From positions 62,001-126,000 of the forward strand of contig NZ_KB898043.1 in assembly GCF_000377345.1 (NCBI RefSeq): a DNA stretch of 64,000 bases. The letters run 5' to 3'. Positions 17,437 to 20,478 of the stretch are shown piece by piece. The notes under the pieces were generated by a model. It saw nothing but the letters and a program-made list of their open reading frames with translations. It was not told the origin of the DNA and did not search any database. The translations under genes were made by a program, and so were the position numbers. This stretch comes from Thioalkalivibrio sp. ALJ16 (GTDB taxonomy: Bacteria > Pseudomonadota > Gammaproteobacteria > Ectothiorhodospirales > Ectothiorhodospiraceae). Position 1 is the stretch's first letter. Every line of letters starts with the position of its first letter.

Positions 17437-18372
17437 TCAGTGAGTCATTGCGTCTCGCATGGACGGAAGTTGTCTTTGGAAGGTGTCGGGACGAAAAGGC
17501 CGATAGTCGCTCTCCTCAACCGTAATAAAGCCACGGTGGCGGATCTTCTGGAGTACCTCTTGCCCCTCAGGAGTTTTACGCAGCCCGATCAGGCGCTCCT
17601 CCAATTCTGGCGAGCCCAGCAGCACATCGTTGCTGGCAAGCAGGGTCATTCCCGGGAAACTGGGCGAATTGGCAATGATCCGAACGAGGGTGCCATCACC
17701 CAGCGACATCAAACGCTGGACCGTGGTGTCATGGGGTAGTCGTGCGATCAGATCGCCGTCGGTCACGACCACGAGGGCATCGGCTTCCCCGCGAGCAAAC
17801 GTAGTCAATGCCCCGGAGTGGTGATGGTGGTGTCGCACCGTCGGGGCTGAGGACCCATACGGCCATTCGAGATACGAAAGCGTGTATTTCAGAAAAGCGG
17901 CCGCAAGACTTTCCTCGAAAGGGGCCGCGATCGTCGTATCCGCCAGGTCTTCTATTTGGGTGAACTGAGCTTCCGACCTGACCACGAGCACGATCGCGAG
18001 TCGATCGACTGTGGCTGCGACTGGACGGTAGCCCGTTTCTTCCGTAAGCAGGGGCACAACGTGCGGCGATGTAAAGACGAAGTCGTAGCGCTCGGCTGCG
18101 ATCCTTCGGAGGAAGGCGCTGCGTGTGCGCGCTGATTGAAGTTGGACGGGCTCACCGATCTGTTCCGCAAGCCAGTCACGAAGTGGCGCGTAGCGCTCGA
18201 AGAGTGCTGGAGGGCTGAGAAATGGCTGTATACCCAGCGAACGTGTCTCAGATCCATGTGCGGGCATATGGGCAAGGAGCAGCAGGGCGAGCAAGCAGGC
18301 GACGGTCCCCGGGATACGGAGAGATGGGCGTGATACCGAAAGCCCCAAATGAAACGCAGAAACCTTGGACAT
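17437..18372 (-). CDS. PhnD-type periplasmic substrate-binding protein
   Basis: 311 aa with an N-terminal hydrophobic signal segment (about 22-36, possible cleavage after AHG). The body matches the phosphate/phosphonate-binding PhnD-like family: GIQPFLSPPALFERYAPL at the start of the mature protein, YDFVFTSPH and DLADTTIAAP. A run of five His (181-185) lies in the loop before SGALTTFARGEADA, where family members usually have a ligand-contacting SH motif. No permease or ATPase gene is near. With the GGDEF-EAL gene next on the same strand, it may feed ligand information to that sensor instead of a transporter (inference). Confidence 0.8.
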   Translation of the reverse strand: MSKVSAFHLGLSVSRPSLRIPGTVACLLALLLLAHMPAHGSETRSLGIQPFLSPPALFERYAPLRDWLAEQIGEPVQLQSARTRSAFLRRIAAERYDFVFTSPHVVPLLTEETGYRPVAATVDRLAIVLVVRSEAQFTQIEDLADTTIAAPFEESLAAAFLKYTLSYLEWPYGSSAPTVRHHHHHSGALTTFARGEADALVVVTDGDLIARLPHDTTVQRLMSLGDGTLVRIIANSPSFPGMTLLASNDVLLGSPELEERLIGLRKTPEGQEVLQKIRHRGFITVEESDYRPFRPDTFQRQLPSMRDAMTH

Positions 18373-18694
18373 GATCAGTGTGCCACCTCTCGCAGAGGAG
18401 CAGATGCGCTCGTGCGCATCTCCTAATTAAACCTGTAGCAGAGCTGTTGGGCTTATACCAGAAGCGGGAAGCGATCCGCGCTAAGGCAGCGCGGGTTTTG
18501 ACCGGGACTGCCTTGATAGTCGGAAAAATGACGGTTTTGGAGGCTGACCGCGATTGTCGAAGGGTGCTTGTGTCAATAAATTATCGAGCGGTTGATTGCG
18601 GGCGCCGCCTCTGATCGTGCCGTATCGACTGGCTTGTTTCTTGCTCAGGCCGTGGAGTGATGAACGCGTGTCCCACGCTATGGCAGGAGAAGTT
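18373..18694. other. Divergent intergenic region between the PhnD-like and ZorA-like genes
   Basis: 322 bases without a convincing gene. It is AT-richer than its surroundings and holds a perfect 8-base stem with a 4-base loop (AGATGCGC, 18402-18409; GCGCATCT, 18414-18421) in the leader of the PhnD-like gene. A stretch around 18554-18585 (TTGTCG, later AATAAATTAT) could be a promoter towards the ZorA-like gene. A 78-codon frame at 18378-18614 shows no family features. Confidence 0.5.
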
Positions 18695-19756
18695 ATGACA
18701 GCGACACTTGACCGGATTGCCGAGGCCCTGCTGGCGACGCTGCAGGGCATGAGCCCGATGACCGTGATCGGGTTGTTTACGCTGTTGCTGTTCGCGCTGT
18801 TTCTGCTGGCGCTGCTGGCGACCGCCCTGCGCCGTGCACGCGCCCTGCAGGGGGCGGCGCCGGCCCTGCTGACGACGCTGGGGATTCTCGGAACCTTCCT
18901 GGGGGTGGCGATCGGATTGCTGGACTTTGACTCCGGCCGCGTGGAGGCGAGCATCCCGGCGCTGCTGGAGGGGCTCAAGCTGGCGTTTGTCACCAGCATC
19001 GTGGGCATCCTGCTGTCGGCGGTGCTCCGCCTGGTTCAGGTGCTGACGCCGGGGCACGGTACGCAGGCCGCGGCCACCGCTGTTGATCCGGATACCGGTC
19101 CCCGGGGGGAAGCGGCGGGCAGGGCCGAGATGCTGCAACTGCTGGCGCAGCAGCGCGATGCCGCGCTGGGCACGGCGGAGGCGGTACGGGTGCTTGACCA
19201 GCGGCTGGAGACGCGGCTCGATCACCAGCATCAGGCCCTGCTCGCGGCGCTGGACGCGATGGCCGAGCGTTTGACCGAGCTGAGCAGCACCCATCTGGTC
19301 GAGGCACTGGAGCGGGTGATCCACGATTTCAACAGCCGGCTCGGCGAGCAGTTTGGCGAGAATTTCCGCCGTCTGGATGCCTCGGTGGAGCGCCTGGTCG
19401 AGTGGCAGGAACGTTACCGGGAGCAGATGGACAGTCTGCAGCGGGCCTTTGAACAGGCACGTAGCGGGGTCGAGCAGACCGAGCAGACCCTCGAGCGCAT
19501 GACCGGGCAGGCCCTGCAGATCACCCGTCACGTCGAGGATCAGGAGGCGACGCTGGCCAGCCTGCGGCGCGAGACGGTCGAGCTGGAGGCGCTGCTCGGC
19601 AGCATCGCGGCGTTGCGCGACCGCGCCACGGAGGCCTTCCCGGCGATGGATGCGCGTCTGGAAGCGATGCTCGAGAGCATTGAAAACGCGGTACAGGCGG
19701 GGCAGTCCGCGCAGCGCCGCCACCGCGGGCTGGCCGCGGCAGAAGGGGCGGTTTGA
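18695..19756 (+). CDS. ZorA-like MotA/TolQ/ExbB proton-channel protein with coiled-coil tail
   Basis: 353 aa from the ATG at 18695, chosen for GGAGAAG just upstream; the frame is open 33 codons further. Three membrane helices at about 21-44, 55-76 and 89-116. TLGILGTFLG (61-70) and IPALLEGLKLAFVTSIVG (87-104) are the MotA/TolQ/ExbB channel signatures. From about 170 to the end the sequence is heptad-like coiled coil rich in Glu, Gln and Arg, predicted to project into the cytoplasm, as in ZorA but shorter. It overlaps the MotB-like gene. Together they would form an ion-driven rotary or pumping complex across the inner membrane. No ZorC, ZorD or ZorE gene is near, so membership in a defence system is not shown. 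Confidence 0.82.
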   Translation: MTATLDRIAEALLATLQGMSPMTVIGLFTLLLFALFLLALLATALRRARALQGAAPALLTTLGILGTFLGVAIGLLDFDSGRVEASIPALLEGLKLAFVTSIVGILLSAVLRLVQVLTPGHGTQAAATAVDPDTGPRGEAAGRAEMLQLLAQQRDAALGTAEAVRVLDQRLETRLDHQHQALLAALDAMAERLTELSSTHLVEALERVIHDFNSRLGEQFGENFRRLDASVERLVEWQERYREQMDSLQRAFEQARSGVEQTEQTLERMTGQALQITRHVEDQEATLASLRRETVELEALLGSIAALRDRATEAFPAMDARLEAMLESIENAVQAGQSAQRRHRGLAAAEGAV

Positions 19757-20478
19757 TGCTGTCCTGGGTGGCGGGCGCCCGGCGTGACTCGCGTGGCGGC
19801 GCGGCCGGTCACGAAGCGGATCAGGGTTCGCACTGGCTTGCGGTAGCGGACCTGATGGCGGCGCTGATGATGATCTTCCTGTTCCTGGCGCTGCTGCACA
19901 TGGTGCAGGTGGAGCGCGAGAGCGCGGCGCATACCGAGGTTCGCGACGAGGCAGCGGCACTGCGCGCGGCAATCTATTCCGTGCTGGAGGCGGAATTCCG
20001 CGAGGATCTGCCGCGCTGGAATGCGGAGCTGGATCGCGACAGCCTGACCCTGCGTTTCCGCGAGCCCGAGGTCCTGTTCGAGCGCAGCTCGGCGCGCATT
20101 CGGCCGCGTTTCGAGGCCATCCTGGAGGACTTTATCCCGCGCTACGCGGAGCAGCTGCGGCCGTTTGCGGAGGTCATCCGCGAGGTCCGGATCGAGGGGC
20201 ATACCTCCAGCGAATGGGCCGGCAGCGAGGACGAGCTGGAGTCCTATTTTGGCAATATGGACCTGAGCCAGCGGCGCACGCGGGCGGTGCTGGAATACGC
20301 CTACCAGCTGGAGCCGCTGCGGGAGGACGACTGGTTTCGGTCACGTGTGGCCGCGGTGGGCCTGTCGTCTTCGCGGCGCATCCTGGATGCCGCGGGCGAG
20401 GAGGATCGGGCGGCTTCGCGACGGGTGGAATTCAGTGTGCTCACCGATTTCGAGACGCGCCTGCTGGGCGGCGGCTGA
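19756..20478 (+). CDS. ZorB-like MotB/OmpA-type motor protein
   Basis: 240 aa; its ATG overlaps the stop of the ZorA-like gene (TGATG). One membrane helix at about 28-48 contains Asp32 in VADLMAALMM, the position of the conserved ion-carrying Asp in MotB, TolR and ExbD. The periplasmic part (about 90-235) has OmpA-type peptidoglycan-binding features: IEGHTS, LSQRRTRAV and RRVEF. It would anchor the complex to the cell wall while the ZorA-like ring surrounds the helices. A loop (about 155-165, EDELESYFG) interrupts the OmpA core after IEGHTS, a trait shared with ZorB-like proteins. Flagellar motB is unlikely because no flagellar genes are near. Confidence 0.82.
   Translation: MLSWVAGARRDSRGGAAGHEADQGSHWLAVADLMAALMMIFLFLALLHMVQVERESAAHTEVRDEAAALRAAIYSVLEAEFREDLPRWNAELDRDSLTLRFREPEVLFERSSARIRPRFEAILEDFIPRYAEQLRPFAEVIREVRIEGHTSSEWAGSEDELESYFGNMDLSQRRTRAVLEYAYQLEPLREDDWFRSRVAAVGLSSSRRILDAAGEEDRAASRRVEFSVLTDFETRLLGGG

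Follow-up and report, generated by a model that had tools for sequence, protein, structure and literature searches.

A relative of the type II Zorya motor without ZorE, probably recruited to the flagellar regulon of Thioalkalivibrio and Chromatiaceae

Introduction

A 64,000-nucleotide stretch of DNA from Thioalkalivibrio sp. ALJ16 (hereafter the window; the source genome is 2.76 Mb) carries a zorA-like and a zorB-like gene, which resemble the motor genes of the Zorya anti-phage systems and are followed by glnD. Zorya has been portrayed as a machine akin to the flagellar motor that was adapted to defence. The question that this locus raises is whether such a motor pair still acts against phages or now serves another purpose. 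An earlier note, made from the DNA letters alone, had allowed for either an orphan motor working with an effector encoded elsewhere or a non-defence motor, for example in envelope maintenance. Here we put a probability of roughly 60% on the reading that a type II ZorAB motor has lost its effector and the distal part of its tail, and now belongs, through recruitment, to the sigma-54/FleQ flagellar regulon in Thioalkalivibrio and Chromatiaceae. In searches of the openly available literature, neither an orphan ZorAB nor one linked to flagella had been reported.

Results

The gene pair resembles type II ZorAB

Searches with protein models and structures indicate that the two proteins are related to the type II Zorya rotary membrane motor. 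The ZorA-like protein, P0001, scored 158 bits against the NCBIfam model of ZorA2 and 211 bits against that of PADLOC, and the corresponding ZorB2 scores of P0002 were 209 and 263 bits. Pfam alone misses P0001, its MotA_ExbB model reporting no match to this protein in the genome scan. The top solved structure for both proteins was 8VVI, the type II ZorAB of Sulfuricurvum kujiense (E-values of 1.6e-33 for P0001 and 3.8e-42 for P0002), and a fold search with the predicted monomers again returned 8VVI as the best match for each. The ZorAB architecture proposed in the earlier note is therefore borne out, more precisely as type II.

Structure prediction was confined to monomers. The AlphaFold model of ZorA (predicted local distance difference test score, pLDDT, of 79) has membrane helices at residues 21–45, 49–76 and 83–117 and a helical tail at 139–352; the ZorB model has a pLDDT of 85. 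The OmpA-type domain of P0002 reached 39.1 bits against PF00691 (cut-off 27.2), in agreement with its fold match, Asp32 of ZorB was invariant across the alignments, and the two open reading frames (ORFs) overlap as TGATG. These observations support the earlier description of a three-helix MotA/TolQ/ExbB-type protein overlapping a MotB-like protein with Asp32 and an OmpA-type domain. The tail is helical as had been claimed, but with about 235 residues it is longer than the coiled coil of about 180 residues then described. Comparison with 14 congeners gave a ratio of nonsynonymous to synonymous substitution rates (dN/dS) for ZorB of 0.06–0.23, and of about 0.06–0.12 with most of them, which is similar to glnD; both genes are therefore real and constrained.

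The pair shares the ion-motor superfamily with MotA/MotB stators, and its ZorB-like protein has a MotB-type transmembrane (TM) helix and OmpA-type domain. The ZorA-like protein differs from MotA, however, in lacking the MotA_N domain and, in the predicted structure, the cytoplasmic loop between TM1 and TM2. MotA contacts FliG through its cytoplasmic loop. Since ZorA has no loop of this type, the pair is unlikely to replace MotAB. TolQ/TolR and ExbB/ExbD likewise have a three-helix A subunit and are ion-driven, but sequence and fold group the pair with ZorAB and not with TolQR, as the earlier note had anticipated, and its description as stand-alone is also supported. Neither adjacency to TolA/TonB nor a best match to the TolQR/ExbBD families was found for it, and TolQR, ExbBD and the flagellar MotAB are encoded by separate genes in this genome.

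Table 1. Features of the zorAB-like locus, in window coordinates.
Feature	Position	Strand	Description
Second palindrome GTC-N8-GAC, GTCGGAAAAATGAC	18519..18532	+	Four mismatches to the FleQ consensus
FleQ-box-like site GTCAATAAATTATC	18572..18585	+	Two mismatches to GTCAATAAATTGAC; sole site with at most three mismatches in the 64 kb window
Sigma-54 (-24/-12) promoter-like site TGGCTTGTTTCTTGCT	18630..18645	+	Upstream of zorA in 15/15 Thioalkalivibrio copies
Ribosome-binding site GGAG	18686..18689	+	Five bases 5' of the zorA-like ATG; read by eye
zorA-like gene	18695..19756	+	P0001, 353 residues; MotA/TolQ/ExbB-type, three TM helices and helical tail; without canonical ZorA2 C-terminal tip
First tail segment, ZorA residues 193–245	19271..19429	+	Kept in all ZorA2: ALxxVIxDFN..QFGxNF..L..WQ..Y
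Distal tail, ZorA residues 246–335	19430..19699	+	Conservation 53–94% within the clade, 13–27% to canonical ZorA2
zorB-like gene	19756..20478	+	P0002, 240 residues; MotB-like; one TM helix with Asp32; periplasmic OmpA-type domain, residues 107–221
Ion-binding Asp32 codon	19849..19851	+	ZorB; equivalent to D21 in S. kujiense and D24 in type I ZorB (PMC11890865)

ZorE and the canonical ZorA tail tip are absent from the clade

A Zorya type II system is recognised by adjacent ZorA2 and ZorB2 homologues, and these are present. Their scores nevertheless remain far below the NCBIfam equivalog cut-offs (158 of 700 bits for ZorA2, 209 of 400 bits for ZorB2). When whole genomes were searched with a ZorE model, none of the 15 Thioalkalivibrio genomes that carry the pair, including this one, gave a match, whereas the same model matched canonical controls and the neighbourhood of a second, canonical ZorAB in three Chromatiaceae; an earlier single-protein search, run without a positive control, had also come back empty. 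An effector acting in trans was rejected on this basis, and with the canonical tail tip also gone the orphan motor of the earlier note is disfavoured. By these tests the pair is not a Zorya type II system, and an annotation calling such pairs Zorya would mislead.

Loci in the genome collection were grouped by ZorB identity into a clade of at least 63% (17 loci, from Thioalkalivibrio and Chromatiaceae) and a distant set of at most 51% (63 loci). ZorE was absent from all 17 clade loci and lay directly downstream in 62 of the 63 distant ones. A maximum-likelihood tree separates the clade from all other sequences with 100/100 support, on a long stem of 2.05. Outgroup rooting placed it among ZorE-bearing lineages, a nested position that is only moderately supported because the root lies on distant Bacteroidota sequences with long branches. 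This placement suggests, with the same moderate support, that ZorE was lost.

The canonical tip, comprising the last ~55 residues of ZorA2, was found in 65 of 67 canonical proteins and in none of 46 clade members. Both canonical exceptions are shortened ORFs, and one of them, at locus L130, is also without ZorE. Alignment indicates that the ZorA tail of the clade has been shortened and rebuilt, its first segment being common to all ZorA2 and its distal segment clade-specific (Table 1), and we propose that the distal segment forms a new output surface. ZorAB brings ZorE to the membrane upon infection (PMC11890865). Given this recruitment and the co-occurrence of tip and ZorE, the simplest reading is that the canonical ZorA2 tip is the dock that recruits ZorE. 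On other branches of the tree, tip and ZorE are both absent at L254/L255 and at L256, and L257 has a tip with no adjacent ZorE. The L257 protein (L257:9878-14734) is a ZorA-like protein of 1340 residues. The pair at L254:3266-4818 and L255:9926-11568 is unrelated to the clade and adjoins an EF-G-like gene; the two genomes, of one genus, hold another ZorAB elsewhere.

The pair is inherited like a core gene

Half of the Thioalkalivibrio genomes examined (15 of 30) carry the pair, in every case convergent with glnD, and it was also found in many Chromatiaceae. A patchy, defence-island or mobile distribution was not seen among the Thioalkalivibrio carriers, all 15 of which have it at one fixed site beside glnD, and this fixed neighbourhood led us to reject a mobile defence island. 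The pair is chromosomal and vertically inherited, like a core gene. Three Chromatiaceae with the clade pair carry a complete canonical Zorya II as well. At L092 (a Thiorhodovibrio metagenome-assembled genome) and L224, a clade ZorB has no ZorA detected upstream, which could reflect either faulty assembly or genuine loss.

The divergent PhnD-like and GGDEF-EAL genes, taken by the earlier note as the only directed neighbours of the pair, turned out not to be constant and were rejected as partners: both are absent in L035, and PhnD is missing in L044 and evolves fast. Among congeners, the PhnD-like periplasmic protein (window positions 17437–18372, divergent from zorA) changes much faster than its neighbours, being 37–72% identical where glnD is 79–95% identical, and is sometimes lost.

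Flagellar genes adjoin the pair in relatives

The absence of effector, flagellar, Tol and Ton genes from the vicinity of the pair holds within the window, but not for its flagellar part among relatives. In 15 of 30 Chromatiaceae loci the pair lies directly after motA-motB in the same direction, and fliG, fliF, a sigma-54 regulator and HDOD genes are near it in many of these motAB-adjacent loci; near the canonical loci, no motAB match was found at any of 63. The earlier note had set placement beside flagellar genes in relatives against its own reading. Half of the Chromatiaceae loci sampled show such placement, and the promoter evidence below agrees with it. Two HDOD-domain genes (L093:10841-13007 and equivalents) are convergent with zorAB in more than half of the Chromatiaceae loci, including loci where motAB is not adjacent, and are possible functional partners.

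Gene content shows the same association. In a Chromatiaceae sample of 194 genomes (33 carriers and 161 non-carriers), FliG was found in 33/33 carriers and 91/161 non-carriers (p = 1e-7, uncorrected for relatedness), and the pair was absent from all 70 genomes without FliG. Among the carriers, 16 of 33 have fliG within 20 kb of the pair. FliG is likewise present in 15/15 Thioalkalivibrio carriers, and three near-complete Thioalkalivibrio genomes without FliG also lack the pair.

Sigma-54-type and FleQ-box-like sites precede zorA

Polar flagellar genes in Pseudomonas are controlled by FleQ together with RpoN, and a FleQ consensus, GTCaNTAAAtTGAC, has been given (PMC6120874). In Thioalkalivibrio, a sigma-54-type site lies 65–91 bases 5' of the zorA start in all 15 copies (background 1.3%); the pattern used in this systematic scan had been derived beforehand from the window and one or two congeners. 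The GG and GC of the site are among the few invariant columns in an alignment of this otherwise variable intergenic region. In the window, GTCAATAAATTATC lies ~45 bases upstream of the sigma-54 site, and a FleQ-box-like site with at most four mismatches was found in 13/15 Thioalkalivibrio zorA upstream regions, compared with 3.8% of control windows.

The strict sigma-54 pattern (TTGC) gave no match upstream of zorA in Chromatiaceae, where the alignment shows a -12 box that is mostly CTGC, ATGC or similar. With a looser pattern, which has its own background of 12.6% and was compared with canonical zorA upstream regions, a GTC-N8-GAC palindrome (26/29) is followed by a sigma-54-type site (25/29); since the pattern was loosened after the sequences had been inspected, these Chromatiaceae counts are exploratory. 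Both elements occur jointly in 24/29 Chromatiaceae regions, compared with 5.7% of control ORF upstream regions and 0/65 canonical zorA upstream regions, of which 1/65 has the sigma-54 site alone. Upstream of motA in the same Chromatiaceae loci, the sites were near background.

In this genome the same two-element arrangement also precedes a sigma-54 regulator, which is flanked by fliF and by a FleQ-like gene that shares 63% identity with its Chromatiaceae counterpart. Scanning the whole genome for the arrangement gave eight matches, and three in the backward control; the zorA and sigma-54 regulator sites are among the few of the eight directly before a gene start. Taken together, sequence gives good support for a link of zorAB to the sigma-54/FleQ flagellar regulon. 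In the flagellar cluster itself (L263 / L269; G000:C4, ~83–88 kb), which contains the FleQ-like gene, this second sigma-54 regulator and fliF, sigma-54-type sites precede both the second regulator and the fliE/fliF region.

Discussion

Compared with Zorya type II (ZorA2-ZorB2-ZorE, 8VVI), the pair retains the membrane core, the invariant Asp, the OmpA-type domain, the first tail segment and the zorA-zorB order. It differs in having no ZorE, a shorter ZorA tail without the canonical tip, core-gene inheritance, a sigma-54/FleQ-type promoter and, in relatives, flagellar gene order. Since the nuclease partner and tail tip have been lost, inheritance is that of a core gene, and the promoter signals and, in the closest relatives, the chromosomal position are those of flagellar genes, the function of the pair probably lies in motility and not in defence against phages. 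Most likely it is an auxiliary motor, or a sensor of the envelope, that is produced together with the polar flagellum and whose tail acts on a cytoplasmic target. By homology, five ZorA and two ZorB would assemble, the OmpA domain of ZorB would anchor the motor to peptidoglycan, and proton flow past Asp32 would rotate the ZorA pentamer or switch its state. Rather than recruit ZorE, the shortened helical tail could then relay this change to a cytoplasmic target that is part of the flagellar apparatus or produced along with it. The drive is probably protons, by analogy with the type II structure (PMC11890865). For the fuller version, domestication of a rotary anti-phage motor into the regulon of the polar flagellum, with a re-evolved tail acting on a cytoplasmic flagellar target, we consider the odds to be about even.

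Several points weigh against recruitment to the flagellar regulon. The Thioalkalivibrio pair is not near flagellar genes, motAB is not adjacent in half of the Chromatiaceae loci, and the genomes are related, so that the counts represent non-independent events. Sigma-54 sites occur outside flagellar regulons too, and glnD is a nitrogen gene, for which reason control by NtrC was considered. The GTC-N8-GAC motif is short, and the FleQ consensus by itself is poorly predictive in P. fluorescens (PMC6120874). Finally, ZorA has no MotA-like cytoplasmic loop and so cannot act on FliG in the way that MotA does, and the target proposed for its tail is hypothetical.

If the sigma-54 control reflected nitrogen or envelope stress instead, the pair might be a general envelope-maintenance or stress motor working on peptidoglycan in the manner of Tol/Ton, for which the OmpA-type peptidoglycan-binding fold, the capacity of sigma-54 to serve other regulons and the position beside glnD could all be cited. 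We regard this as unlikely, given that TolQR and ExbBD are already encoded elsewhere in this genome, that no TolA/TonB-like gene is nearby, that the palindrome is of FleQ type rather than NtrC type, and that FliG-less genomes of the Chromatiaceae sample never have the pair. The non-defence motor of the earlier note is thus favoured, although flagella replace its example of envelope maintenance. A continued anti-phage role appears more doubtful still. The motor would sense infection and signal to an effector encoded elsewhere, or, in a variant that would explain co-regulation, would sense flagella-attaching phages; the core motor, Asp32 and peptidoglycan-binding domain are intact and Zorya is modular (PMC11890865). 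Against such a role stand the lack of ZorE in every Thioalkalivibrio carrier, the lost tip, and vertical inheritance at one fixed chromosomal site, which is not the patchy, mobile pattern of defence genes, as well as the complete canonical Zorya II that three Chromatiaceae hold in addition. Loss of effector and tip might also mark a functionless vestige of a disappearing Zorya system, but this is very improbable, being already contradicted by the constraint on protein (the low ZorB dN/dS against most congeners) and promoter, and by long persistence over two families.

Recruitment of the type II motor into the flagellar regulon, which we favour, would make this clade a reverse step, in which a defence motor was placed under flagellar control. 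As a corollary of domestication, it predicts that the C-terminal tip of canonical ZorA2 recruits ZorE, and that zorAB is needed for some aspect of motility in Thioalkalivibrio and purple sulfur bacteria.

Other ZorAB-like loci were noted in the collection. A ZorB-like gene without an annotated ZorE on the Prevotella plasmid pE2-28 (L252, 3920–4621) has two FtsK-annotated genes and unknown genes in the same run. In other Gammaproteobacteria (L259-L261; G293:C213, G422:C52, G427:C206), chromosomal type II-like ZorAB pairs stand beside housekeeping genes, as the clade pair does, directly after minE in L259 and L261, with L260 related. They differ from the clade in keeping the tail tip and a third gene, which is ZorE-like in two of the three, and in forming a separate branch, and they possibly represent another housekeeping use of ZorAB.
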